Source: Bacteroidales bacterium (GTDB taxonomy: Bacteria; Bacteroidota; Bacteroidia; Bacteroidales; UBA932). Taken from it: DNA of 64,000 nucleotides. The stretch covers positions 25,733 to 89,732 of the forward strand of contig JAFRSW010000005.1 in assembly GCA_017427385.1 (NCBI GenBank), given 5' to 3'. This document shows positions 1-36,695 of this stretch, piece by piece; within the stretch, counting starts at the first letter, position 1; every line of letters begins with the position of its first letter. A model generated the notes under the pieces. That model was not told where the DNA came from, searched no databases, and worked only from the letters and a program-made list of their open reading frames with translations. Position numbers and translations under genes: made by a program.

Positions 1-66
1 ATAATCAACATCGGTTTTCTTTTTTACAAATTTAAAAAATAATAATCACTTTACGGGAATATTTTT

Positions 67-98
67 TAATTTTGCATTGTGGACATTGAGCCACAATG
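67..98 (+). promoter_or_regulatory. TAnnTTTG promoter with leader hairpin for the small lipoprotein gene
   Basis: TAATTTTG at 67-74 matches the Bacteroidota -7 element. It is followed at once by a perfect 8-bp stem (CATTGTGG 75-82, CCACAATG 91-98, 8-nt loop), so the transcript would begin in or beside this hairpin. The rest of 1-133 is AT-rich and shows no gene. Confidence 0.55.
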
Positions 99-1785: not shown

Positions 1786-3632
1786 TGGGAAAACTTAAGG
1801 TACTTCCGGCAAACATTGCCAACATGATAGCCGCCGGCGAGGTGGTGCAGCGGCCCGCATCCGTAGTCAAGGAACTGATGGAGAATGCGATAGACGCGGG
1901 CGCCACCCAGATCGACGTGGTTGTGAAGGATGCCGGCCGCACCAGCATCCAGGTGATAGACAACGGCTCCGGCATGAGCCCGGCCGACGCAGTTCTCTGC
2001 TTCGAGAGGCACGCCACTTCCAAGATCGCGGAGGCGGAAGACCTCCAGCACATCACCAGCTACGGCTTCCGCGGAGAGGCCCTGGCCAGCATCGCTGCCG
2101 TGGCGGAAGTCACCCTCAAGACCCGCCGCGTGCAGGATGACACCGGCACCCAGGTTACAATTTCCGACCCCAACGCCGTCAAGACCAGCTCGGTAGCCGC
2201 ACCCACCGGCAGCAACTTCCTGGTGCGGAATCTGTTCTACAACACCCCCGCCCGCCGCAAGTTCCTCAAGAGCGACAACATCGAGCTCAAGCATATAGTG
2301 GAAGAGTTCACGCGAGTGGCACTCACCTGCCCCGAGGCAGGGTTCTCCCTGAATTCCAACGGGCGGGACATCTTCCGCCTGCGCCCGGCCAAGTCCCTGA
2401 AATTCAGGGTGCTGGACCTGCTGGGCTCCAACGTGACCGGGGACCTTGTGGATATTACCGCCGAGACTTCCCTGGTGCGGGTGCGCGGCTTCCTCGCCCG
2501 TCCTGACACCGCCCGCAAGACTGTAGCCAACCAGTTCTTCTTCGTGAACGGCCGTTATTTCCGCAGCAGCTACATGCACAAGGCCGTGATGAAGGCCTAC
2601 GAGGAGTATCTGCCCGAAGGTTACACTCCATCCTACTTCATCTGGCTGGAAGTGGACCCTGAGGCCGTAGACGTGAACATTCACCCTACCAAGGCCGAGG
2701 TAAAGTTCGAGGAGGACGCGGTCATCTTCCAGACCATCTACGCTTGCGTTAAGGAAACATTGGGCAAGAATGCCTTCGGCGAGGGTTTGGATTTTGATAC
2801 GGAGGGCCGCGTGGAGATGCCCCAGATGGGGTCGGCCTTCGACGAGTATCGTGGGCCGGCGTCATCCGCGCCCGCGCCGCCGTTGGACCCGGACTACAAT
2901 CCCTTCGCTTCGCCAGATTCCTTCGCTTCACCAGATTCCTTCGCTTCGCTCGGAATGACAGGAGTGTCATCCCGAACCCGCGAAGCGGGTGAAGGGATCC
3001 CCTCCTATCGCAACCCGGCCGCAAGCGCTGGATACGGGGCGCTGTTCGAACAGAACCAGGCCGCGCAGGCCAAAGCACTGATAGTCAAGGGCAAATACAT
3101 CATCGCCCCGTCCGCATCCGGCGTTCTGCTGGTCCACATACGCCGCGCCTGGGAACGCATCCTATACGAACGCAGCCTCAAAGCCCTCTCGAAGAACGTT
3201 CCAGTCACCCAGACCGCCCTCTTTCCCGTACAGGTTCAGGTGGGCGCCTCGGCAAGGCTCCTGTTCGACGAAAACGCCGCCATGCTCGCCTCGGTCGGCT
3301 TCGACATCAGCCCCTTCGGCACCGACACCGTTGTGGTAAACGGAGTGCCAGAAGGCTATTCCTGTGAGCCCGGCAAGGTACAGCAGATGGTGCAGGACCT
3401 TCTCCTGATCCTTTCGGACGAGACGTCCGGCGTGCCCGAGGTGGTGCGCGCGGCCCTGGCCTCCAAGTTCGCCACCCTCGGCAGCGTGAACGCCGAGCCG
3501 CCCCGCAATGCCCTTGAGGCACAGCAACTTATAGATTCGCTCTTTGCCTGCGAGAATGCCGAGCTGACCGCCACCGGCAAGAAGATCACCGCGGTGATGA
3601 GCACAGACGATTTAGAAAAAAGATTCCAGTAA
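1785..3632 (+). CDS. mutL: DNA mismatch repair protein MutL with degenerate endonuclease motif
   Basis: A 615-residue MutL. The N-terminal GHKL ATPase is intact: ENAIDAGA (near residue 35), DNGSGM, GFRGEALASI, then NTPARRKFLK and the transducer domain. A low-complexity linker (about 373-406) is built from translated dispersed repeats (FASPDSFASPDSFASLGMT and following residues). The C-terminal dimerisation domain ends in the Bacteroidota-like FACENAELTATGKK tail. The usual metal-binding DQH-x-x-x-E motif is replaced by HIRRAWE (residues 451-457), so nicking activity is doubtful. The gene overlaps its upstream and downstream neighbours by one base each and lies in one operon with the rhomboid gene. 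Confidence 0.95.
   Translation: MGKLKVLPANIANMIAAGEVVQRPASVVKELMENAIDAGATQIDVVVKDAGRTSIQVIDNGSGMSPADAVLCFERHATSKIAEAEDLQHITSYGFRGEALASIAAVAEVTLKTRRVQDDTGTQVTISDPNAVKTSSVAAPTGSNFLVRNLFYNTPARRKFLKSDNIELKHIVEEFTRVALTCPEAGFSLNSNGRDIFRLRPAKSLKFRVLDLLGSNVTGDLVDITAETSLVRVRGFLARPDTARKTVANQFFFVNGRYFRSSYMHKAVMKAYEEYLPEGYTPSYFIWLEVDPEAVDVNIHPTKAEVKFEEDAVIFQTIYACVKETLGKNAFGEGLDFDTEGRVEMPQMGSAFDEYRGPASSAPAPPLDPDYNPFASPDSFASPDSFASLGMTGVSSRTREAGEGIPSYRNPAASAGYGALFEQNQAAQAKALIVKGKYIIAPSASGVLLVHIRRAWERILYERSLKALSKNVPVTQTALFPVQVQVGASARLLFDENAAMLASVGFDISPFGTDTVVVNGVPEGYSCEPGKVQQMVQDLLLILSDETSGVPEVVRAALASKFATLGSVNAEPPRNALEAQQLIDSLFACENAELTATGKKITAVMSTDDLEKRFQ
2901..3002 (+). repeat. Dispersed repeat array inside the mutL linker
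   Basis: Two partial copies, then one full CCTTCGCTTCGCTCGGAATG unit (2934-2960), then the facing arm TGTCATCCCGAAC...GGGATCCCC (2965-3002) with the hairpin ACCCGC-GAA-GCGGGT (2976-2990). All are read through in frame as part of MutL. Confidence 0.85.
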
Positions 3633-8676: not shown

Positions 8677-9270
8677 TTATACAATTAAAGAGTTTAATTC
8701 TTCTACCAGGAGAGTGCTGTCGTTGATGACCTCCACGACCTTGATGGGCGTGCCGGTCTTGATGGTATCGCCATCGGTGAGAGCGATGTACTCGCGCACG
8801 GCGTTGGCGATGGTGATCTGCACCTTGCCTTCGCCCGAGCGCTCACCGGGGATGGTGAGATAGACCTTGCCGGTGCAGCCTACCGCAGCCTCGTTAACAT
8901 CGATGTTGCCGCTCTGCTGCATGCTCGCGAGGAGTTTGAAAAGATACATCACGATAGCCACCAGGGCTATACCCACGAGGGCCGAGATGATGATGAGGAC
9001 CGCCTTCGAATGCACGCTGTCCTTCAACAGGATGGCCGTCCATCCGAAACCGAGGATAAAGTTCACGAAGTTGCGGAAGGTGTAGAGATTGATGCCTCCG
9101 TCAAGATCCCCGCCCATGTCGGAAGGATCCACGTCGAAGTCGGTAGCTCCATCCACATCCGCACCTAAGAAGGTAAGGATGCTCTGGATGATGAATACGA
9201 GCGTCGCGGTGAGGGTGATGCCCCAGAGGATCTTGCTCAAAACGCTAAGTGATGCCCACCATGTAATCAT
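8677..9270 (-). CDS. NfeD-like membrane protein with C-terminal OB-type domain
   Basis: A 197-residue protein. Membrane segments lie at about 10-33, 70-85 and 90-115. The acidic stretch between the first two (GADVDGATDFDVDPSDMGGD) is probably a periplasmic loop. A C-terminal beta-rich domain (about 128-197, VGCTGKVYLTIPGERSGEGK) resembles the OB fold of NfeD proteins. Such proteins associate with flotillin scaffolds, and here the flotillin gene follows after 4 nt. No ClpP-like serine protease domain is present, so this is the short NfeD1b type. The operon's promoter region carries a long inverted repeat. Confidence 0.78.
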   Translation of the reverse strand: MITWWASLSVLSKILWGITLTATLVFIIQSILTFLGADVDGATDFDVDPSDMGGDLDGGINLYTFRNFVNFILGFGWTAILLKDSVHSKAVLIIISALVGIALVAIVMYLFKLLASMQQSGNIDVNEAAVGCTGKVYLTIPGERSGEGKVQITIANAVREYIALTDGDTIKTGTPIKVVEVINDSTLLVEELNSLIV

Positions 9271-9286
9271 ATACCTATATAAATTA

Positions 9287-9330
9287 AAATTTGCAGAAAA
9301 CCTGTTTCTTCGTTGTTTTCTGCAAATTTA
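9287..9330 (-). promoter_or_regulatory. Promoter and 15-bp inverted repeat upstream of the NfeD-flotillin operon
   Basis: AAATTTGCAGAAAAC (9287-9301) and GTTTTCTGCAAATTT (9315-9329) form a perfect 15-bp inverted repeat with a 13-nt spacer. The minus-strand -7 element TAAATTTG (9330-9323) lies inside one arm, so the repeat spans the start of transcription. This fits an operator better than a terminator. Confidence 0.6.
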
Positions 9331-9399
9331 TAAAATTTTATTGAATTGCAATAATTTTTTACTAAAATTTCAAATTTTTTTATTGTGGACGTTTTTTGC

Positions 9400-9407
9400 T
9401 ATCTTTG
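9400..9407 (+). promoter_or_regulatory. -7 element of the RIC-LuxR gene, nearly leaderless
   Basis: TATCTTTG, separated from the ATG at 9413 by only 5 nt, so the mRNA leader would be about 1-2 nt. Confidence 0.55.
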
Positions 9408-9412
9408 TACCC

Positions 9413-10354
9413 ATGAAACCACTCCACGGCAACATGAAAATGGCTGACCTCATTGAGGTCAATTACCATCTTCTGGCGGTGCTCACGCGCTTCGGGATAG
9501 AGGGGGGATTCGGGGAGAAGACGGTGCGGGACATCTGCGAGAAGAACCATCTGGATACCGACACCTTCCTCCTCATCTGCAACGTCTATACGCACAAAGA
9601 CCATGAGCCCTCCGAGGAGATACTGCGCGACGGGCATATCGACGACATCCTCCGCTACCTCCACCAGAGCCACGACTACTACATGAGCAACGCCCTGGTG
9701 CTGCTGGCATCCACAATCGAGGACCTCATCAAGCCTTGCTCGGACACTCAGAAGAAGGTGATCTGGCAGTTTTTCGCGGAGTACAAGGCGGAGCTGGAGA
9801 AGCACTTCGCCTACGAGGAAGGAGAGGTCATCCCCTACGTGCAGAAGCTGCTGCTCGGCAAGCGCGATCCTCACTACAGCATCGACCGATTCGAGGAGAA
9901 CCATTCCAATATCGAGGAGAAACTATCCGACCTCAAGAGCCTGATACTCAAGAGCTTACCGGCTACCTGCGACGACCGTCTGCGCGTGCGGCTCCTCAAC
10001 TACATCTTCGCCCTCCAGAGCGACCTCGACTCCCACACCGCCATCGAAGACAACATCCTGGTGCCGATGGTGCGGCTGATAGAGAACCCCCTCAGCCATA
10101 CCCGGACGGAGAAGCAGGATGCCTCCGCCGGCGGCGAGGAGCGGGACGAACTGTCCGACAGGGAGATAGAGATTCTGGTGAGCGTGGCGCAGGGGCTCCT
10201 CAACAAGGAGATAGCCGACCGGCACAACATCAGCATCAACACCGTCATCACCCACCGCAAGAACATCACCCGCAAGACCGGCATCAAGACCGTCGCCGGC
10301 CTCACCGTGTATGCCATTCTCAATGGCTACGTGGATATCAATTCTGTAAAATAG
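9413..10354 (+). CDS. Di-iron RIC/hemerythrin-like protein fused to a LuxR DNA-binding domain
   Basis: A 313-residue cytoplasmic regulator. Residues about 9-60 resemble the ScdA/RIC N-terminal domain (LLAVLTRFGIEGGFGEKTV). Residues about 75-225 form a hemerythrin-like four-helix bundle with candidate iron ligands His84, His87, His131, Glu135, His164, His208 and Glu212. Residues about 246-310 are a LuxR/GerE HTH (LSDREIEILVSVAQGLLNKEIA, then NTVITHRKNI). Prediction: a di-iron sensor of nitric oxide, oxygen or iron status that acts directly on DNA. The start at 9413 sits right after a -7 element. The frame extends further upstream, but that part overlaps the divergent operon's promoter and gene. 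Confidence 0.85.
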   Translation: MKPLHGNMKMADLIEVNYHLLAVLTRFGIEGGFGEKTVRDICEKNHLDTDTFLLICNVYTHKDHEPSEEILRDGHIDDILRYLHQSHDYYMSNALVLLASTIEDLIKPCSDTQKKVIWQFFAEYKAELEKHFAYEEGEVIPYVQKLLLGKRDPHYSIDRFEENHSNIEEKLSDLKSLILKSLPATCDDRLRVRLLNYIFALQSDLDSHTAIEDNILVPMVRLIENPLSHTRTEKQDASAGGEERDELSDREIEILVSVAQGLLNKEIADRHNISINTVITHRKNITRKTGIKTVAGLTVYAILNGYVDINSVK

Positions 10355-28545: not shown

Positions 28546-30588
28546 CTAGTCGAACATCTCCCAGAATCCGGGGAAGGATTTGGCGACGCAGGCGGTGTCG
28601 TCGATGGCGATGGGTTCCGAGGCGCCGAAGGAGGCGATCTTCAGGGCCATGGCCATGCGGTGGTCGCCGCGGGAAGTGAAGGCGCCGCCGCGAAGCAGCC
28701 GGCCGTTCAGCAGGCGGGAAGTCAGGGTCTCACCCACGATATGAAGGTCGTCCCCAACCACAGAAGCCTCCACGCCCAGCCCGGAAAGCATCTCCAGAAT
28801 AGCCTCACAGCGGTTGCTCTCTTTCCCGACCAGTCGTCCAACCCCGGAAATCACGCTCTCGCCGGCACAGAACGCGGCCAGCACGGAGACTATCGGGAAG
28901 ATGTCCGGGGCGTTGTTCAGGTCTGCAGCGAAAGCCTCCAGGGGTGCCCGGGACACGCACACGGCTTCGTCCAGTTCAGACACGACCGCTCCGGCCTCGA
29001 CCAGAATATCGGCTATGGTGAGATCCGCCTGCAGCGAGGATGTATCCAGCCCGGAGACCTCGGCCTTCCCATACAGGGCGCCGGCCACCAGGAAGGGCGC
29101 CGCGCTGCTCCAATCTCCCTCGATGTCGAAGTCCGCAGCATGGTACTTCTGCCCGCCGCGTATCTTGAAGGTCACGCCCGTGCATCCGCTCCAATCCTGC
29201 TCCTCGATCATCTTCTCATCCCCCTCCATCTCGGAAGAAATCTTGATGCCGAAGCGCTTGAGCACGTCGCAGGTGATGAACATGTAGGGGATACTCTTGG
29301 GGTCGGTGACGATGAGGGTGGATGGCTTGTCGAAGAGCGGCAGGGCGGTCAGCAGGCCGGAGATCAGCTGCGAGCCGTCCTTTCCGGAGATCTCCGCCAC
29401 GCCGGGGATGATGCGGCCGTCCACGCGCATGGGGACGGTGCTTTCGCGCACTATCACCCCGAACGAGGCCATGATATCGCTCACCCCCTTCAGAGGGCGT
29501 CGGGTGAGGGTTTTTTCGCCGGTGATGGTGACGGGGCAATCGTTGATCGTGGCCATCAGAGGGATCATCAGGCGGGTCAGAAGCCCGGATTCGCCGGTGT
29601 GAAGGGTTTCCAGATTGGTGTGCGCTCCGCCGATGCCGTCGATAGTCAGCGTGCTGCCGTCCACGCGGACCTTGGCACCAAGGGCACGGGCGACTGCCAG
29701 GGCGGATTCGCTGTCGTCGCAGGGGGAATATCCGCGGAGATGACTGCGCCCGTCTGCCAGGGCGGCGGCGATGATGGCCCGCTGCGCGAAGCTCTTGGAT
29801 GCGGGCATCTGCAGGCTATTGCGGAAGAATCCGCGCCAGTCGCCGTAGACCTCACGGTGCATGGTGAGATAGTCGATCTGCCCGGGGGCAGTGGCTTCTT
29901 CGGGGAGGCAGGCGTAGCTGAAAGGTGCGCCGGCTTTCAGGCACTCGATGCGGGTTTCGCGGCCGGCATCGCCCATTGCAAAGGCGACGAGCGGATGACC
30001 TGTCTGTGGGGGCTCTGCCCCCAAAACCCCCGCGGCTCCCGGACTACCGACATCGCTCGCTTTGCGAGCTCCGTCCCGTCCTCCGCCGTGCGCACTGAGG
30101 TGCGCATTGAACCCGCCCGCATCATACAACGCCATGACCCGTTTTACATCATCTTCCGAATGGGCGGTGACGACGATTTTAGCGATATCGGCACCATAGC
30201 GATAGCAGCGGTCGCGCAGCTGCTGCAGATATTCCAGGTCCGGAGTGCCGGAGTAGTCGTGGAAAGAGCGGATGATTTCGGTGCCGCACTCCTCGCAAGC
30301 CAAGCGGAATCGCTTGCTGAAGCCAGCATCCGCCTCAACCTCCAGGTCCGCGAACCGGGCACCGGCGCGGATGGCAACGCCCAGTCGGCGTTCCGCCTCT
30401 TTAGCCCCGACCTCAACAATCCGACACGTCGCAATCAGCGGCGTGTCGGTGTTGGCGAATAGGTCTTCTATCTCTTCGTCCGAGAGATCGCAGCGGTCCA
30501 GGCGGATCTCCGCCATTTCTATCCACGGATCATCCAGGATGGCCAGGATCTCGTCGTATGTCTTATTCTGTATGCTGGTGCAGATCAT
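28546..30588 (-). CDS. aroDA: Bifunctional 3-dehydroquinate dehydratase / EPSP synthase
   Basis: A 680-residue fusion of two shikimate enzymes. Residues 1-255 are type I dehydroquinate dehydratase, with catalytic His110 (SFHDYSGTP) and Schiff-base Lys137 (IAKIVVTAH). Residues about 257-680 are EPSP synthase (LQMPASKSFAQRAIIAAAL, GESGLLTRLMIPL, the KTLTRRPL region, SRGDHRMAMALKIA), which joins shikimate-3-phosphate and PEP. Residues about 158-198 are an unusual insertion in the AroD domain encoded by a triple-hairpin segment. Promoter TATCTTTG is at 30616-30609. Gene order in the protein is AroD first, which is not the fungal AROM layout. Confidence 0.93.
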   Translation of the reverse strand: MICTSIQNKTYDEILAILDDPWIEMAEIRLDRCDLSDEEIEDLFANTDTPLIATCRIVEVGAKEAERRLGVAIRAGARFADLEVEADAGFSKRFRLACEECGTEIIRSFHDYSGTPDLEYLQQLRDRCYRYGADIAKIVVTAHSEDDVKRVMALYDAGGFNAHLSAHGGGRDGARKASDVGSPGAAGVLGAEPPQTGHPLVAFAMGDAGRETRIECLKAGAPFSYACLPEEATAPGQIDYLTMHREVYGDWRGFFRNSLQMPASKSFAQRAIIAAALADGRSHLRGYSPCDDSESALAVARALGAKVRVDGSTLTIDGIGGAHTNLETLHTGESGLLTRLMIPLMATINDCPVTITGEKTLTRRPLKGVSDIMASFGVIVRESTVPMRVDGRIIPGVAEISGKDGSQLISGLLTALPLFDKPSTLIVTDPKSIPYMFITCDVLKRFGIKISSEMEGDEKMIEEQDWSGCTGVTFKIRGGQKYHAADFDIEGDWSSAAPFLVAGALYGKAEVSGLDTSSLQADLTIADILVEAGAVVSELDEAVCVSRAPLEAFAADLNNAPDIFPIVSVLAAFCAGESVISGVGRLVGKESNRCEAILEMLSGLGVEASVVGDDLHIVGETLTSRLLNGRLLRGGAFTSRGDHRMAMALKIASFGASEPIAIDDTACVAKSFPGFWEMFD
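29996..30110 (-). repeat. Triple-hairpin segment inserted in frame in the AroD domain
   Basis: Three perfect hairpins in 100 bp: TGGGGGC-TCT-GCCCCCA (30007-30023), GCTCGC-TTT-GCGAGC (30055-30069) and TGCGCAC-TGAG-GTGCGCA (30089-30106). The region encodes Gly/Ala/Pro-rich residues absent from normal AroD. Confidence 0.72.
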
Positions 30589-30633: not shown

Positions 30634-31689
30634 TTAGAAATTCAGCGTGTATATTGCCCCACGCTTGTTATCGACGGTCGTTGTCAGAGTCTTCCGCGCA
30701 ATCTCGATACTGTCTCCGTTCAGCATATAAGCATCCGAAGAGTCGTAACCGTACAAGTAAAGCGTGGAACTGCTACTGAAGTCGTTGGAAATGCTGGGCA
30801 AATATGGATAATACATGATAAGTTGCCTTGCATCAAGGTCGTAATTTACTTCAATCCCAGAATATCGTTCTGGAGTGTAGTTCCCATCCCATGATCCACC
30901 TAAACCAAGCCCGATTGCTGTTCCGGATTTTGTATTCCCTCCAGATACAATTACCATTGAATTTGAATTCCTCAAGCCATAGGTTATACCGGTATGAAAG
31001 CAATTGTCGGTACTACTTGCCACGCGTACTGCATATAGCTTCTTGCCTGCCCAGTCTTCCCGCAGGGTAGCGGTAATTTTCAGAATAGAGAAATAGTTTT
31101 TCAGTGAAACCGATGACAGCGCGCCAGCCGTTATGGTTCCGAATCCCATCATAAGACAGTCGTCTAAATGTCGCAAGTTGTTACCTTTGCCACTTCTCGC
31201 CATTATCCTGTTAAATAGACTTACACCCACTTCCAGGTACGTAGTTCCCTGTGAAATGGAAACAATGCTTCCGCTTCCATGTTTCACCGATTGATAAGGC
31301 TCTGACGCTGTTTGGGTAACGGCCGGATAGATTACATAGTAATATGCTCCAGGAGTCCCGGTTATTGTACCAGTAAATGTTGCGCTGGTTTTGCCGTTCC
31401 CACTGGAAAGCGTCAGGTTGTCGATAGTTTGAAGTGTGCTGGAACTTTCAGTGGCATCGTATGTTACCAATGTTAGTTGATCTCCTTCTTTCCAAGTGCA
31501 CTTCAATGCGGAACCATCAACGCCATAACTTGTCTTAGTGTCTTCATCGCTCCCTTCAAGACTCACGGTAAGAGTAATTTCGTGGGTCTCCGTATCGATT
31601 TTGTTTTTATCCTTTACAGGATTATCCATTTTATTGCACGCTGCAAGGCATACCAGTGCAGATGCCAAGATAATAAGTGTCTTTTTCAT
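30634..31689 (-). CDS. Fimbrillin-like lipoprotein
   Basis: A 351-residue surface lipoprotein. The lipobox LVCLAAC gives an acylated Cys18. The N-terminal domain has the fimbrillin-family pattern (DTKTSYGVDGSALKCTWKEG, where a KTSY strand is followed by a W-x-x-G-D element, then YYYVIYPA). The C-terminal half is beta-rich. In Bacteroidota such proteins are pilins or pilus-tip and surface adhesins. A clear ribosome-binding site (AAGGAGG) lies 8 nt before the start. It is the last gene of a five-gene operon and is preceded 16 nt upstream by the stop codon of a 47-residue peptide gene. Confidence 0.75.
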   Translation of the reverse strand: MKKTLIILASALVCLAACNKMDNPVKDKNKIDTETHEITLTVSLEGSDEDTKTSYGVDGSALKCTWKEGDQLTLVTYDATESSSTLQTIDNLTLSSGNGKTSATFTGTITGTPGAYYYVIYPAVTQTASEPYQSVKHGSGSIVSISQGTTYLEVGVSLFNRIMARSGKGNNLRHLDDCLMMGFGTITAGALSSVSLKNYFSILKITATLREDWAGKKLYAVRVASSTDNCFHTGITYGLRNSNSMVIVSGGNTKSGTAIGLGLGGSWDGNYTPERYSGIEVNYDLDARQLIMYYPYLPSISNDFSSSSTLYLYGYDSSDAYMLNGDSIEIARKTLTTTVDNKRGAIYTLNF

Positions 31690-31705
31690 AATTCTTTCCT
31701 CCTTT

Positions 31706-31849
31706 TTAGATTAATTCTCCTCCGTCTTCAAAACCGGGGGCAGGAACTGAATCAAAAGATGATCCCACTAACAAATCGCAGAGTTTTCCTGCTGGTCCAA
31801 TACTAATCACCTCTATTTCAGGTGAAGAATAAAATTGTTTTTTGTTCAT
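31706..31849 (-). CDS. Tiny peptide 1, YxSPE-type, paired with a lipoprotein gene
   Basis: A 47-residue open frame from ATG 31849 to TAA 31706. It has no signal peptide. The N-terminal part MNKKQFYSSPEIEV aligns without gaps with tiny peptide 2 (33311-33448): Tyr7, Ser9, Pro10, Glu11, Val14, Ser16, Gly21, Leu/Ile23 and Cys24 are shared. The rest (LLVGSSFDSVPAPGFEDGGE) is acidic and Pro/Gly-rich. It ends 16 nt before the lipoprotein start, with an AAGGAGG site in the gap. Function unknown. It resembles a precursor peptide (conserved leader, variable tail), but no maturation enzyme is nearby. Confidence 0.7.
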   Translation of the reverse strand: MNKKQFYSSPEIEVISIGPAGKLCDLLVGSSFDSVPAPGFEDGGELI

Positions 31850-31871
31850 AATTATTGATTGTTTAAGGTTG

Positions 31872-33299
31872 TTACTTGAAGATTACCGGGCGAATGGGTT
31901 GATAGGCAGCATTCGGGTAATAAACGCTCCAGCTACTGATGGTTTCGTGAGCGGACAGACAATAGTACCTGCCGCTGGACTTATAGTATTCGGAAGTCCA
32001 ATACTGCCCATCGGGGATGAAAATGGTTGTGCCTTCATATCCGGGGATGGATGATGTGACTGTGTTGCCGTTGGTTGCCCTGGATGTATCCCAGACAATG
32101 GAGATGAACGGCGTGGAAGGCACATCTCCCCATAAGATGTCCAAATGGCTGACTCCCGGGATCCTCCAGTCGCCACCCCAGTTTTTGGTCGCGGCATCGT
32201 AGCTGGCATTTCCACCGATGTCCATAGTCGACCCGGGCCTGTAGTAATTAGTGGAAGGAGACGGATTCACGTCACCCCAGTAATAGGTATCTCCCAACAC
32301 ATCTATTGCAGATGCCCCGAGATTCCGGTCAGCGAAATAAAGTTTCTTCCCGTCTACCACGAGACCGAGGTCAACCATGGTGTGCCCGTTTGCATCCGGC
32401 GCAGCCTTGACCTCCGCCCAGGAGGTGCCTGCTACGGAGAACTCTCCCATATCGTAGATCTTCCCCCGTGCCGGCGTGAAGGAGTTGCCGCTTCCACGCA
32501 CATACACCTTCCCATCCGTCGCAACGAAACTGAGGTCGAAGCCTTCCGGCATCTCCATGGGATAAACGCAGATGTAGTAGTCCTTTCCAGCCTCTATGTT
32601 GCCTGTCAGGATGATAGAGGTGGAATTCGAAGCAAGATTGTATGCGGGGGCCGCCTCCAATACCGGGGCTCCGCCATTCCACTCAAATTCCGCCTGCCCG
32701 CTTATCCTCACAAACATACCATCGGGCTGCCTTGCAGTCAGATAAATCTGCTTGCAGTCGAACTGGGGCGTCACTTTGAGCAGGGCAACGAGGGGCTTGA
32801 AAGAAAAGTCCCCCAGCGTTGCGCTGTGCGCAAGCATAAGGAAACAGTTCCTGTCGAAAGACCCTTCGGTTGCCGCCTGGTATGCATTCAGTTTGCAATA
32901 GTAATAATCCTTGCTATTCGCATAAGCCACGAATGCATCTATTCGTTCCTGAAATGGATACAGGGCCGTCCATCCTTCACTGCAAGCGGAGTAGATGCCG
33001 GTGGCATCCCCCGTGAACTGCGCGGTTGCGCTCAGACTGCCGGAAGAAAGGCTGAACGGCACGTTCGAGTCAGGAGCATAAACCCCTATCCTGTCGGTCG
33101 CCGACCAGATCAGCTGCATCTTGTTCGCAGCGGAACCGGTTGTGAGTTGGACTTTTGTGTCGCCGGAGCCATCCGCCGTGGCAGTAATGGTTATATACCC
33201 ATCCGGCAGCGGAACAATATCTTCTGCTGGTGTGGATTCTATTTTGGAGCAGGCCAATGAAAATGCCCCGAAGGCCAGAATAATCAATGCTTTTTTCAT
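31872..33299 (-). CDS. Lipoprotein with fimbrillin-like N-terminus and FISUMP-type C-terminus
   Basis: A 475-residue surface lipoprotein. The start at 33299 gives the signal MKKALIILAFGAFSLAC, whereas an upstream GTG/ATG frame would overlap the tiny peptide gene. Residues about 35-290 are fimbrillin-like (DTKVQLTTGSAANKMQLIWS). Residues about 300-475 match the FISUMP/major-paralogous pattern (HTMVDLGLVVDGKKLYFADR, NLGAS, TYYWGD, WRIPGVSHLDILW, ending YQPIRPVIFK), found in gut surface proteins. A GGAGG site overlaps the preceding peptide's TAG stop. It is part of the tandem peptide-lipoprotein operon. Confidence 0.77.
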   Translation of the reverse strand: MKKALIILAFGAFSLACSKIESTPAEDIVPLPDGYITITATADGSGDTKVQLTTGSAANKMQLIWSATDRIGVYAPDSNVPFSLSSGSLSATAQFTGDATGIYSACSEGWTALYPFQERIDAFVAYANSKDYYYCKLNAYQAATEGSFDRNCFLMLAHSATLGDFSFKPLVALLKVTPQFDCKQIYLTARQPDGMFVRISGQAEFEWNGGAPVLEAAPAYNLASNSTSIILTGNIEAGKDYYICVYPMEMPEGFDLSFVATDGKVYVRGSGNSFTPARGKIYDMGEFSVAGTSWAEVKAAPDANGHTMVDLGLVVDGKKLYFADRNLGASAIDVLGDTYYWGDVNPSPSTNYYRPGSTMDIGGNASYDAATKNWGGDWRIPGVSHLDILWGDVPSTPFISIVWDTSRATNGNTVTSSIPGYEGTTIFIPDGQYWTSEYYKSSGRYYCLSAHETISSWSVYYPNAAYQPIRPVIFK

Positions 33300-33310
33300 A
33301 ACAGATCCTC

Positions 33311-33448
33311 CTACCATACAAATGTTTCTACATCCATCTCCTGCAGCGCCTCCTCGGTTTGGAGAAGGTTACTGGTGCAGATTACCCCTTCGCTTTTGAA
33401 GGAAAACACGAGCGCCTCCGGGCTTTCGTAATGGTTTTTCACTTTCAT
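33311..33448 (-). CDS. Tiny peptide 2, YxSPE-type, paired with a lipoprotein gene
   Basis: A 45-residue open frame, ATG 33448 to TAG 33311. It starts MKVKNHYESPEALVFSF and carries GVICTSN at residues 21-27. It shares nine identical or conservative positions with tiny peptide 1 at the same residue numbers, through Cys24. Its tail is acidic (QTEEALQEMDVETF). The stop codon TAG is part of the next gene's ribosome-binding site (TAGGAGG), so translation is probably coupled. It begins 13 nt after the upstream membrane-protein gene. Function unknown. Confidence 0.7.
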   Translation of the reverse strand: MKVKNHYESPEALVFSFKSEGVICTSNLLQTEEALQEMDVETFVW

Positions 33449-33461
33449 AGACCTATAATGT

Positions 33462-33641
33462 TTATATTTTCAGCATTTCGTGTGCGGTGAGCCGGTTCAC
33501 CTTGTCCCGCAGATACTCGTTCTCTTCCTGCAACTGTTTCATCTCGGCACGGTGTTCCTCTTCGGATCTGCGAAGAAGCCACCCGGCTCCTATCAGCACA
33601 ACCAAAAACAAAAGGACTATTAGTGCCAGATACATTCTCAT
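33462..33641 (-). CDS. Small membrane protein with coiled coil, unknown function
   Basis: A 59-residue protein with one N-terminal membrane helix (about residues 3-20, YLALIVLLFLVVLIGAGWLL) and a charged coiled-coil tail (EEEHRAEMKQLQEENEYLRD) that probably projects into the cytoplasm. The start at 33641 was chosen over a longer frame to 33719 because the membrane helix begins there. It is the first gene of the operon with the two peptide-lipoprotein units. I do not recognise a family, but the shape resembles small scaffold or FtsL-like proteins. Confidence 0.6.
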   Translation of the reverse strand: MRMYLALIVLLFLVVLIGAGWLLRRSEEEHRAEMKQLQEENEYLRDKVNRLTAHEMLKI

Positions 33642-33802
33642 AACTGATGTGTGCAAAAATGGGTTATAGGCGTCACTTTTGAATAATGATTTTTCAGTAA
33701 TTTGCACTGCTGAGGCCATAATTTGGCCACAATCTCGATTACTTACATCACAAAATCTGCAAAGAAAAAGAAGAAACTTTTCCTTTTCTATGTAAAATTT
33801 TC

Positions 33803-33829: not shown

Positions 33830-34462
33830 ATGTATCAGAAGAATCCCCTTATTCAATTTGCCGGAATACCCGTTTCAGGAGCAGCGCTGAAGTCCTGCTT
33901 TTCTTCGCTGGCCCATCCGGAAAAGAAGATTCAGGCTCTTGAACAAAGCGGGGAACTTATACGGCTTAAGAGAAATCTCTACATAGTCAATAGGGACCTT
34001 TCCGGAAAACCAACCGACAAAGGCCTTTGCGCCAACCATATTTACGGCCCTTCATACGTATCTCTTCACTGGGCACTCCGTTACTATGGCATGATTCCGG
34101 AAAGGGTCTACACTATAACTTCTGCAACCACAAAGCGCTCCCGCACATTTCAAACACCTGTGGGTCGTTATGCCTATTTTCAGGTGCCCGACAAATACTT
34201 CCCTATAGGAATAGAAAGCAAGGAAGATGGTGATGTGCATTATCTTATAGCCAGCAGGGAAAAGGCCCTGTGCGATCTGATTTTGCACGATAATTATGTG
34301 CCGAATCAGTCCATAAAGTCCCTGATTGCTTATCTCGAGGAAGATATGAGGCTGGATATGGACGTGGTATCGGAACTTGACACCAATATCATAGAGCAGT
34401 GCGCCAGAATTGGCAGAAAGACTCAGATTTTTGAATACCTGATTAAAATAATCAAGCAATGA
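33830..34462 (+). CDS. AbiEi-type antitoxin (type IV toxin-antitoxin system 2)
   Basis: A 210-residue protein. The N-terminal winged-helix region includes LEQSGELIRLKRNLYIV, the 'short wing then GxY/LY' pattern of AbiEi. The central AbiEi_C-like part has YGPSYVSLHWALRYYGMIPE, TITSATTKRSRTFQTPVGRY and REKALCDLIL, typical of this family. Predicted role: autorepressor and antitoxin for the next gene, with which it overlaps by 4 bp (ATGA). It differs strongly in sequence from the system 1 antitoxin. The region is more AT-rich than its surroundings. Confidence 0.87.
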   Translation: MYQKNPLIQFAGIPVSGAALKSCFSSLAHPEKKIQALEQSGELIRLKRNLYIVNRDLSGKPTDKGLCANHIYGPSYVSLHWALRYYGMIPERVYTITSATTKRSRTFQTPVGRYAYFQVPDKYFPIGIESKEDGDVHYLIASREKALCDLILHDNYVPNQSIKSLIAYLEEDMRLDMDVVSELDTNIIEQCARIGRKTQIFEYLIKIIKQ

Positions 34463-35295
34463 CCACTTACGAATCTATGTTGGCAAAGTATAGCCAACAG
34501 GGCGGAGGAGTTGTTCCTCCTAATGCCGAGCAGGAGATCTGCCAGAAAATCGCACTTGCCGGCCTATGCCGTGGCGGTTTCTTCGACCATGCCGCCTTCT
34601 ATGGCGGCACCTGCCTGAGGCTTTTCCACGGATTGCCCAGATTCTCGGAAGACCTCGACTTTTCCCTCATCGAAAAACGGGATGATATCCATCTCGAGAA
34701 TTATTTCGATGCCATTCGTGAAGAGTTCAAAATCGCAGGGTTCGAAGTAATCATAAACAAAAAGGAAAAGAAGATGTTCGGCCGTGTGGAGTCTGCTTTC
34801 CTGAAAGAAAACACCGAGGCCTACGACATCAAATTCCAGACAAAGAAAACCGTCAAGGTCAAGATTGAGTTAGATACAGACCCTCCTCTTCTTTTCAACA
34901 CTGAGCAGAAGGTTCTCCTTGATCCGTATTCATTCATGGCACGTTGTGTCACCCTGCCGGACCTGTTCGCCGGCAAGATGCACGCTCTTGTATATAGGGC
35001 GTGGAAAAGGCGCGTAAAGGGGCGGGACTGGTTTGACTTCGAGTGGTATGTACGCAACGAAGTCCCGCTGGATTTCAAGCATCTTCAAGCCAGAATCAAA
35101 GAATTCAATGGCGAGGATGTCAGCTTGGATGATTTCAAGAATATGTTGCGGCAGAAACTGGCCACCACAGATATTGAAGCTGTCAAGGAGGATGTTATTT
35201 ATTACATTGACAGTCAGACACTTCGCCAGCTGGACTTCTGGTCCAACGACTATTTCCTGCAGCTGGCAGACCATATGAACATAATCAACGGATGA
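34459..35295 (+). CDS. AbiEii-family nucleotidyltransferase toxin, system 2
   Basis: A 278-residue protein with the nucleotidyltransferase motif FYGGTCLRLFHGLPRFSEDL followed by DFS (GG-T and DxD, residues about 48-72). The RVKGRDWFDFEWYV segment (near residue 190) is the K-x-x-D-x-x-D motif conserved in AbiEii toxins. It would inhibit growth by modifying nucleotide substrates, tRNA in the characterised relatives. It is preceded by its antitoxin (ATGA overlap) and followed by a regulator gene with another ATGA overlap. Confidence 0.87.
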   Translation: MTTYESMLAKYSQQGGGVVPPNAEQEICQKIALAGLCRGGFFDHAAFYGGTCLRLFHGLPRFSEDLDFSLIEKRDDIHLENYFDAIREEFKIAGFEVIINKKEKKMFGRVESAFLKENTEAYDIKFQTKKTVKVKIELDTDPPLLFNTEQKVLLDPYSFMARCVTLPDLFAGKMHALVYRAWKRRVKGRDWFDFEWYVRNEVPLDFKHLQARIKEFNGEDVSLDDFKNMLRQKLATTDIEAVKEDVIYYIDSQTLRQLDFWSNDYFLQLADHMNIING

Positions 35296-36695
35296 TGATA
35301 ATGAGATTGATGTATTACGCGGTGTTGGCCGTGGTTATGGCGGAAAGCCTGATCGTGCAGGCCGGCAAGGATGTATCGTCCCAGAAGTACGATGCGGCGA
35401 TGGAGAAGGCGCTGATGGCGCTGGAGCAATCGGAGGGGCAGCCCCGGATAAAGGTACAGGCCCTGCAGACAATCGTCGGCATTGATATCATGACCAGCCG
35501 CGATGCGGATGCCTGGGGGAAGGCCCTGGAGGCCGAGACCATCGCCAGGAAACATGGGCTCGACAAGGAGCTGGCCGGCATACTCATCTCCAAGGCCAAG
35601 CTCTGCTCCTACGCCGAAATCTCCCCCGAAACGGGGCGCAACGACGAGGGGCTGGAGTATGCAAACGAGGCCCTGCGGATTGCAGAAACCATAAAGGAGC
35701 CCGAGCTGGAGGCGGAAGCGTGCTTTGTCATTGGCTCCCTCTACATCAACAAGAACCGCTGGAGCGACCCCATCGACCAGGGCATCTACCGCACGGCCGG
35801 GGAGTGGCTGGACCGCGGGCAGGCGATTGCCGACACCCACAACATCGAACGCCTCCGCCGGAACGGTGTCCTCTTCCGTTCGCGCTGGTTCCAGCAGGGG
35901 GACCGGAATGAGGAGGCGCTTGCCTACTTCTCCAACGCCCGCGAGGCCCTTCCGGAAGATGACCATCTGATGGCGAGTGCCCTGGACGACCGCCTGGTGC
36001 GGCTCCACACCCGTACCGGGGATGCCCAGGCAGCCCTGGATGCCCACGACGATTATGTGCGGGAGATCACCCGCTACATGAACCAGAAATCGGATGAGAC
36101 CCTACAGGAGATGGAAACCCGCTTCGAGGTGCAGGAGAAAGAGCGTAAGCTAGAGCGGCGCGGCTATCAGATTACCCTTCTCCTGATGCTGGTGCTGCTG
36201 GCGGCTGCCATCATAGTGATAGCCGTGAACCACATCCGGCGTGTGCGCCGCCGCAACGACGAGCTCAAGCGCATCAACGACACCAAGGAGCAGCTGATAG
36301 AGATTCTTTCCAAAGACCTGCGGAACCCGGCGCAGGCATACAGGTCCGACCTGGAAAAGCTGTCGGAGGATGCCGCCACGCTCGATTCCGGCCAGATCCG
36401 CGAGCGCTGCCGCAAGATCGCGGAGAGCGCCCAGTCTATGAACGAAGATGTGGCCAGATACGTGGGCGACCTGCTGATAGAGCGGGGACGCCGGATCGCA
36501 GACCTAGGCCTCTCCAAGCGCGAGATAGAGATCATCCGCCTGAGTTCGGAAGGCCTCACCGCAGCCCAGATCGCAGATAAACTGTTCCTCAGCGTCCACA
36601 CTGTCAACACCCATCGCCAGCGCATCTACGCCAAGATGGATGTGAAGAATGTCTCAGATATGCTTCACGCAGCCAGCGAGCTGGGGATAATCTAG
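35292..36695 (+). CDS. TPR-transmembrane-LuxR regulator with degenerate HisKA helix
   Basis: A 467-residue protein. A signal or anchor segment (residues about 5-23) is followed by tetratricopeptide-like helices (about 30-280), a membrane segment (about 294-314, LLLMLVLLAAAIIVIAV), a linker resembling a histidine-kinase dimerisation helix, and a C-terminal LuxR HTH (about 404-467, LSKREIEIIRLSSEGLTAAQ, then FLSVHTVNTHRQRIY). The kinase H-box normally reads HDLRNP. Here it is SKDLRNP (near residue 342), so no phospho-histidine is possible. The start overlaps the AbiEii stop (ATGA), with ATG 35301 as an alternative. It is likely a periplasm-sensing membrane-bound transcription factor. Confidence 0.78.
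   Translation: MMIMRLMYYAVLAVVMAESLIVQAGKDVSSQKYDAAMEKALMALEQSEGQPRIKVQALQTIVGIDIMTSRDADAWGKALEAETIARKHGLDKELAGILISKAKLCSYAEISPETGRNDEGLEYANEALRIAETIKEPELEAEACFVIGSLYINKNRWSDPIDQGIYRTAGEWLDRGQAIADTHNIERLRRNGVLFRSRWFQQGDRNEEALAYFSNAREALPEDDHLMASALDDRLVRLHTRTGDAQAALDAHDDYVREITRYMNQKSDETLQEMETRFEVQEKERKLERRGYQITLLLMLVLLAAAIIVIAVNHIRRVRRRNDELKRINDTKEQLIEILSKDLRNPAQAYRSDLEKLSEDAATLDSGQIRERCRKIAESAQSMNEDVARYVGDLLIERGRRIADLGLSKREIEIIRLSSEGLTAAQIADKLFLSVHTVNTHRQRIYAKMDVKNVSDMLHAASELGII

Follow-up and report, generated by a model that had tools for sequence, protein, structure and literature searches.

We analysed a window of 64,000 nucleotides (nt) from a Bacteroidales bacterium (assembly GCA_017427385.1, contig JAFRSW010000005.1, positions 25,733 to 89,732), in which an operon on the minus strand carries two very short genes, pepA and pepB, each directly ahead of a gene for a surface lipoprotein. 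The operon reads, in order of transcription, coiled-coil gene, pepA, lipoA, pepB, lipoB. Its first gene (33462..33719) encodes a small membrane coiled-coil protein of 85 amino acids (aa), or of 59 aa from an inner ATG at 33641, and had a weak match to DUF6377 (0.0058), under the family cut-off. PepA (33311..33448) is 45 aa long, with a front that runs through C24-T-S26 and is followed by the tail NLLQTEEALQEMDVETFVW. The pepA stop codon is overlapped by an AGGAGG site at 33307..33312 (TAGGAGG, 33313-33307), ahead of lipoA (31872..33299, 475 aa). The longest lipoA frame begins at 33317; the best start is the ATG at 33299, 11 nt past the pepA stop codon, and the lipoA queries used against libraries and homologues began one codon ahead of it. 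PepB (31706..31849, 47 aa) has a diverged front, with GKLCD replacing EGVICxS, and a tail ending in APGFEDGGELI. A second AGGAGG site (31698..31703) lies in the pepB-lipoB junction, and lipoB (30634..31689) starts 16 nt past the pepB stop and encodes a fimbrillin-like lipoprotein of 351 aa with a lipoprotein signal and lipobox (MKKTLIILASALVCLAAC). LipoB matched the NCBIfam family fim_Mfa1_fam at 2.8e-7 and 30.1 bits, below the cut-off of 130, and a Pfam scan returned no fimbrillin match for it.

These coordinates agree with a first-pass annotation of the window, which had pointed out the two frames of 45 and 47 codons lying 11 and 16 nt before lipoprotein genes with AGGAGG in both junctions; the ungapped match it described between PepA and PepB over residues 7-24 was recovered by alignment. 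Its remark that such sites are rare in the window was roughly right, as a match of at least 5/6 to AGGAGG stood before the first ATG in 4 of 48 calls of at least 150 aa, lipoB included. The lipoA site escapes this count because the first ATG of that frame is at 33317. The placement of the unit behind a coiled-coil protein is true of the window and does not extend to the family described below: by a crude filter, a coiled-coil gene preceded 1 of 112 peptides, the window's own, and the gene was rejected as a constant third partner. A coiled-coil-like protein ends just before a pepB relative at locus L158 (by eye). No maturation enzyme or other peptide-modifying enzyme was present among the window neighbours at 25.9-38.2 kilobases (kb), as the annotation had stated (other loci were not annotated for such enzymes), and for the same reason a ribosomally synthesized and post-translationally modified peptide precursor was rejected.

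A profile made of the two rows pepA and pepB had a match at an expect value (E) of 0.001 or less in 40 of 151 genomes of the genus, the window's own included, and at the loose threshold of E<=1 in 103 of 151, where about one chance match per genome is expected. With a 32-member alignment, the genome of the window yielded nine copies at E<=1, every one of them ahead of a lipoprotein gene (by eye); contigs C17 and C3 carry additional tandem pairs. In twelve genomes of the genus, picked for quality and number of hits, 127 matches were found at E<=3, with 2 to 29 in each genome, and most but not all of them fell within the 80 regions that were studied. These regions and the nine loci of the own genome gave a set of 112 peptides, identical and near-identical units being kept. 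The motif Y..P belonged to the rules that selected members and starts; thus, the near-total conservation of Y and P is partly built in.

A lipoprotein gene lay directly after 103 of the 112 peptides, 99 by rule and 4 by eye (L090, L141, L134, and L039). Under a fixed rule, a lipoprotein start followed 97 of 112 family frames compared to 22 of 1,742 frames outside the family that were 35-65 aa long and came from the same regions. The gap between peptide and lipoprotein gene was between -26 and +28 nt in 96 of 99 units. Upstream, the Bacteroidota-type -7 motif TAnnTTTG occurred within 250 nt of 41 of 110 peptides (9.5 expected from shuffles), and a same-strand lipoprotein gene preceded 28 of 110. 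Of the peptides left over, one is at a contig edge and eight are exceptions, among them the L083 peptide, which probably has a frameshifted lipoprotein gene behind it. The L097 peptide stands alone before a terminator-like hairpin, the L100 peptide is the last before one, and the L093 and L101 peptides, from two genomes, have the common tail SDYWSEPLD. From this gene context, the pairing of peptide gene and lipoprotein gene is well supported.

The partners are fimbrillin-like only in part, which narrows the first-pass description of them. The fimbrillin-like N-terminal motif TK..W..GD was present in 67 of 102 peptide-paired lipoproteins compared to 8 of 53 other lipoproteins of the regions. 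A Pfam and NCBIfam scan covered 73 of the 103 lipoproteins, the shorter ones; at E<=0.01 it assigned six to the NCBIfam Mfa1 family, four to FISUMP, one to Pfam Mfa_like_1, and six to Lcl_C, and most had no match. One locus, L168 (genome G576), departs from the usual layout. There, a fimbrillin-like lipoprotein of 339 aa (reverse strand, 464-1483) ends in the tail motif SFTGFGPEENQ, which is joined to its C-terminus in frame. This fimbrillin has its own peptide upstream, and it precedes an L033-type lipoprotein that has no peptide of its own.

In the order, 9 of 295 genomes had a match at E<=0.01, two of them being that of the window and a second from its genus; of ten loci from the other seven genomes, seven had the peptide directly before a lipoprotein gene (by eye). 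In the phylum, a match at E<=0.05 occurred in 5 of 128 genomes, counting that of the window; two peptide-lipoprotein pairs are present in a complete genome from the same class but a different order, and three other phylum loci were unconvincing. The relatives with names are metagenome-assembled Bacteroidales or Bacteroidia, several from ruminants. When 32 members were scanned against libraries of known families, the best E values were 0.04 (Pfam), 0.19 (NCBIfam), and 0.038 (PHROGs), scattered over unrelated models, and a profile search of PDB gave a single match at E 0.62. Judged by titles and the starts of abstracts in the open literature, with subscription papers outside the scope, the peptide-lipoprotein pair is undescribed. 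On this comparative evidence, the peptides are a real, undescribed, and widespread family of two-part small proteins tied to surface lipoproteins. We judge the family to be new because no library or open paper yielded a family match and no known system that we tried has its defining features. Since annotation readily misses genes of about 45 codons, it may have been overlooked.

The front, about 26 residues long, is common to the family and reads Y-x-[SA]-P ... E-G-[VIF]-[IL]-[CA]-x-S in most members. The tail is acidic, usually 10-30 residues long, and frequently ends in F, W, L, or I. In 102 peptides, the tails had a mean charge of -3.7, with a positive charge in one, a cysteine in one, and an F/W/L/I end in 72. 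The conserved front that the first-pass annotation had proposed was borne out; the single cysteine that went with it is not invariant, as within the E-G-x-x-C-x-S stretch of 102 fronts E was kept in 79, G in 69, C in 68, and S in 80. In five of the seven lipoprotein-linked peptides from other families of the order, the cysteine position holds A or another residue (by eye). The tail, called variable and acidic, is indeed acidic but not merely variable, for its motifs are common within types of lipoprotein N-terminal domain (N-domain). No strongly hydrophobic, signal-like stretch was found in the 112 peptides by hydropathy: the best 15-residue value averaged 1.00 (highest 1.71) compared to 2.27 (lowest 1.45) for lipoprotein starts, a slight overlap.

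Both frames are coding and under purifying selection. The ratio of nonsynonymous to synonymous substitution rates (dN/dS) was 0.12-0.26 over 12 pairs of orthologues (pepA from four genomes, pepB from four genomes), with small counts per pair. For tails alone it was 0.095 to 0.32 in 11 of the 12 pairs and 0.76 in one, which had 3 nonsynonymous changes and 1 synonymous change. With homologues beside lipoprotein genes and purifying selection on the frames both found, neither of the outcomes that the first-pass annotation had named as contrary to its proposal occurred. The codons of the tail motifs vary synonymously, which indicates that the constraint acts on the protein, and an RNA-level cause of tail conservation was rejected on this ground. 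The idea that a tail mimics part of its own lipoprotein was also rejected, as tails resembled their own lipoprotein no more closely than others (mean rank 0.54). A simple match of charge was rejected as well: the N-domains are themselves acidic (mean -11.3), and their charge had a rank correlation of -0.26 with that of the tail (p 0.009).

In the comparisons that follow, tail motifs went with the type of the lipoprotein's mature N-domain, much more than fronts did. We read the upstream peptides at loci that had been found from four lipoproteins (the lipoB, L033, L073, and lipoA groups). This is not a clean hold-out, as many of its loci recur from the earlier sets, among them L164, L166, L167, L172, L180, L194-L198, L200, L202, L213-L215, L217, L220, L221, L225, L226, L241, and L246. 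In the lipoB group (27-89% identity to lipoB), GG[DEN][LIV] was present in 13 of 14 distinct tails, mostly in an (A)PGFxDGGEL-like form, L203 being the one without it. The L033 group (31-49%) had 24 distinct tails, with GFGxEE in nine (plus one GMGGEE), NGFNxEE in five, PFN/GMN/PFE-xE in four, and YPxW in five; the YPxW tails accompany a distinct N-domain subtype (by eye, from the alignment). The L033 and L037 lipoproteins are homologous, and the C-terminal part of lipoA resembles that of the L033 group. In the L073 group, all ten peptides whose lipoprotein matched in the N-domain at 45% or more had a DPxDY..DPF-like motif; the other twelve (28-36%, or a match in the C-terminal domain (C-domain) only) had GGDPF in five, GGEGF in one, and neither in six. 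LQEM[DE]VE was present in five of five peptides of the lipoA group, and L216 (76%) has the same tail type behind a different front. Two tails carry their motif twice, L224 (DPGDYNNGGDPF ... DLGDYNNGGDPF) and L177 (YTGFGREYD ... YNGFGEEHE).

For a test in which the peptide had to name the lipoprotein group, 86 loci were reduced to 65 by dropping 17 (11 without a called peptide and 6 by failure of the caller or filter) and merging 4 duplicates. On inspection, L164, L233, L236, and L246 among the dropped loci carry family peptides, the L197 peptide is cut by a contig end, the L176 peptide has an inner stop, the L168 tail is fused to another gene, and L178, L184, L201, L218, L230, L243, L244, and L247 have a partial lipoprotein match or no start that could be found. 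At L219 and L249 (28-29% identity), the lipoprotein start is present and the family peptide before it is absent. The nearest tail with a dissimilar front named the right group in 62 of 65 cases, compared to 21 of 65 for the nearest front with a dissimilar tail (chance 0.29). Tail similarity was 0.331 within and 0.176 between groups (z 21). In three groups, the correlation of tail with mature N-domain was 0.71, 0.46, and 0.75; that of tail with C-domain, the N-domain being allowed for, was 0.25, 0.16, and -0.07; and that of front with N-domain was 0.15, 0.29, and 0.16. In a set of 102 pairs (the 12 genomes and the own genome), tail similarity was 0.325 where the N-domain was common and the fronts dissimilar (85 pairs, 32 of them at 0.35 or above), compared to 0.141 where the C-domain alone was common (27 pairs, none at 0.35 or above) and 0.157 for unrelated lipoproteins.

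Alignments of DNA around the peptide genes demonstrate that the front, on the one hand, and the tail plus lipoprotein, on the other, can recombine as separate blocks. At the pepB position, the window and genome G113 are 0.80-0.91 identical upstream and 0.95 identical in the opening 39 nt of the peptide gene; past that point identity falls to 0.47 and then stays at 0.43-0.50 across the tail and lipoprotein, so that G113 has a different tail and a different lipoprotein behind the same front start. Some pairs within one genome also have common upstream DNA and front with unlike tail and lipoprotein. The identity is 98% in the L080 pair (-31..+84) and 94% in the L066 pair (-74..+65), and in G065 three pairs show it at 81 and 84% over 1..83 and at 75% over -109..+80. 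Conversely, related lipoproteins of different genomes often have related tails behind unlike fronts. The peptide genes mark recombination points at which surface-protein cassettes appear to be exchanged. Homogenisation of fronts within genomes beyond that of lipoproteins was rejected, since likeness is higher within a genome for fronts (z 4.5), tails (z 5.4), and lipoproteins (z 8.4) alike. At L066 (G037), a 147-nt inverted repeat (3439-3585 and 8781-8927, 93%) is formed by two convergent peptide genes, of which it covers the front and the upstream region, and a tyrosine recombinase gene (8974-9900; PF00589, 1.3e-29) adjoins one arm. This is possibly an old invertible element; as a single locus with repeats 93-94% alike, it does not establish current inversion.

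The unusual ribosome site in the junction, which the first-pass annotation had singled out, proved to be enriched across the family. A match of at least 5/6 to AGGAGG preceded the lipoprotein start in 29 of 99 units. The corresponding counts were 1 of 63 for lipoprotein-like starts elsewhere, 2 of 107 for other genes inside operons, 11 of 238 for other genes, and 2 of 99 for the starts of the peptides. One study states that Bacteroidia ribosomes fail to recognise Shine-Dalgarno sites, the 16S tail being sequestered, that ribosomes without bS21 favour strong sites, and that no Bacteroidales meet the criteria for bS21 autoregulation (PMC9976891); a second describes the phylum as naturally without such sites (PMC6847099). 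Since no Bacteroidales meet those criteria, translational coupling would be the simpler use of the junction sites here. The Shine-Dalgarno genes of Bacteroidia that the first study covers, rpsU and rpsR (PMC9976891), likewise have a strong site although the ribosomes of this class do not normally use one; unlike in those genes, the site here marks lipoprotein genes behind a peptide gene. The family would thereby supply a set of genes that carry Shine-Dalgarno sites although the phylum's ribosomes normally pay them no heed.

A constant front joined to a matched tail suggests one common reader of the front and one specific reader of the tail, and the specific reader would most simply be the N-domain of the lipoprotein encoded next. 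Because the peptide has no evident signal sequence, contact between peptide and lipoprotein would be expected in the cytosol, either ahead of export or while it is under way. The explanation that we favour, tentatively and knowing that it may well be wrong, is an accessory protein made along with its lipoprotein, in which a docking front is common to the family and the tail is specific for that lipoprotein's N-domain, perhaps an export escort. The products of each unit would be a surface lipoprotein and a small protein without a leader, made together through translational coupling at the junction. The front would dock on a putative factor common to all units, the tail would recognise the N-domain, and the peptide would most likely serve as a private escort in the cytosol, holding the new lipoprotein until it is exported or while export is in progress. 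Among the guesses of the first-pass annotation, a cotranslational partner fits best; for a precursor or signalling peptide, a less likely option, no maturation enzyme was seen nearby. More doubtful, but possible, is the general proposition that fimbrillin-like Bacteroidota lipoproteins are widely made with a private two-part protein, an interchangeable head for a common factor and a tail for the cognate N-domain, with cassettes swapped by recombination behind a resident head and promoter and synthesis often tied by a Shine-Dalgarno site. The sorting and export of very many Bacteroidota surface lipoproteins are poorly understood, and tiny proteins each matched to the domain type of the following surface protein would add a new layer to lipoprotein export.

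Several observations weigh against the escort reading. Seven peptides (L093, L097, L101, L095, L085, L122, and L100) have no lipoprotein gene behind them, 6 of 22 peptides of the L073 group lack the group's tail motif, and 70 of 99 junctions are without a strong site. Fronts also carry a weaker group signal (0.415 within compared to 0.363 between groups, z 6.7), 53 of the 85 pairs that share an N-domain have a tail similarity below 0.35, and the Mantel correlation of tail with lipoprotein over all pairs was just 0.05 (p 0.024). The tail adjoins the N-domain on the DNA, which invites an explanation by linkage. At L168, the tail motif ends an exported lipoprotein, unlike what a purely cytosolic role would predict, and this hints instead at contact outside the cytoplasm.

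The peptide could instead be a cis-acting translational leader, the translation of which feeds or opens the lipoprotein start, with no job in trans; perhaps there is feedback, an unexported lipoprotein binding the nascent tail. The fixed upstream position (96 of 99 gaps from -26 to +28 nt), the enriched junction sites, and the pepA stop codon overlapping its site all fit a leader. However, a mere leader needs neither protein-conserved tail motifs matched to a lipoprotein domain nor purifying selection on both parts, and some family peptides have no lipoprotein gene behind them; we regard it as unlikely. Standalone peptides are a point in favour of an exported ligand or signal precursor, in which the front would be a leader for common processing and export, the tail the mature ligand, and the lipoprotein its matched surface receptor. 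Receptor-matched pheromone precursors show this arrangement, an unvarying front and a matched tail encoded next to a cognate surface protein, and the doubled motifs in the L224 and L177 tails are in keeping with it. Against this, no exporter or protease was found among the neighbours examined, no cleavage motif was identified, and the lipoproteins, where matched, resemble adhesin-like and structural domains, which leaves the ligand a slim chance.

A structural partner outside the cytoplasm would account for L168, where the tail motif is the C-terminus of an exported fimbrillin-like lipoprotein encoded just before. The tail would complete or cap the lipoprotein N-domain, as a donor strand does in type V pili, the peptide leaving the cell by some route, and that the tail tracks the mature N-domain is consistent with this. 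Yet the peptides have no evident signal sequence, and the L168 fusion is a single case that may be an accident of deletion; we give this a similarly slim chance. Finally, tail and N-domain might be co-inherited merely as DNA neighbours after recombination in the front, the constraint on the tail being unrelated to the lipoprotein. Recombination does end near the end of the front, and similarity declines with distance from the tail, through the N-domain and then the C-domain. However, the lipoB group keeps its tail motifs even where the lipoproteins are 27-30% identical, although linkage in the absence of a matched constraint should have scrambled them, and the signal peptide, which lies closer on the DNA, shows a weaker correlation than the N-domain in all three groups, albeit over a short and noisy segment. 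Linkage only is, in our view, very improbable.

Known systems resemble the units in some features and differ in others. The type V fimbrillins (FimA and Mfa1; NF038041, PF13149) have the lipobox and the TK..W..GD motif in common with the paired lipoproteins, and lipoB weakly matches Mfa1; unlike them, lipoB falls below the curated cut-off, and many of the paired lipoproteins have other C-terminal domains (FISUMP, Lcl_C, BACON, or fn3). To our knowledge, FimA and Mfa1 operons have no counterpart of the peptide. Like dedicated single-substrate export and secretion chaperones, the peptides would be small and acidic proteins that have no leader and are encoded with, and cognate to, a single exported protein, a likeness drawn by reasoning. 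In contrast to them, the peptides are of about 45 residues with a family-wide front, no homology was found, and a dedicated secretion apparatus was not seen. If the escort reading is right, the family could also count as a very unusual relative of dedicated chaperones. Pheromone precursors (ComC/ComD and AgrD/AgrC) also join a constant part to a variable part that matches an adjacent partner gene; here, however, the partner is a surface lipoprotein, and neither an exporter nor a protease or kinase partner was seen next to the units that were inspected. Leader and arrest peptides (TnaC, ErmCL, and SecM) are likewise short frames directly upstream with a ribosome site at the junction, but the tail motifs here are conserved as protein and matched to the downstream product, and some members stand alone.

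Around the operon, a search of its DNA against plasmids gave no match. Divergent from it at 33830-35295 is an AbiEi/AbiEii-like type IV toxin-antitoxin pair (PF08843, 7.2e-35; the AbiEi match was under the cut-off), and in genome G465 (L157) a different AbiEi/AbiEii-like pair occupies its place (by eye). A single frame at 28546-30588 fuses a type I 3-dehydroquinase with an EPSP synthase (PF01487 and PF00275). A TPR-membrane-LuxR regulator lies near the array at 35292-36695 (GerE, 1.2e-15); it is also present in L153 and L157, with a similar one in L158 (by eye), and a crude motif scan placed a LuxR-type gene in 1 of 89 other loci. The membrane-coil part of this regulator and the small coiled-coil protein of the operon both weakly match DUF6377, under its cut-off.

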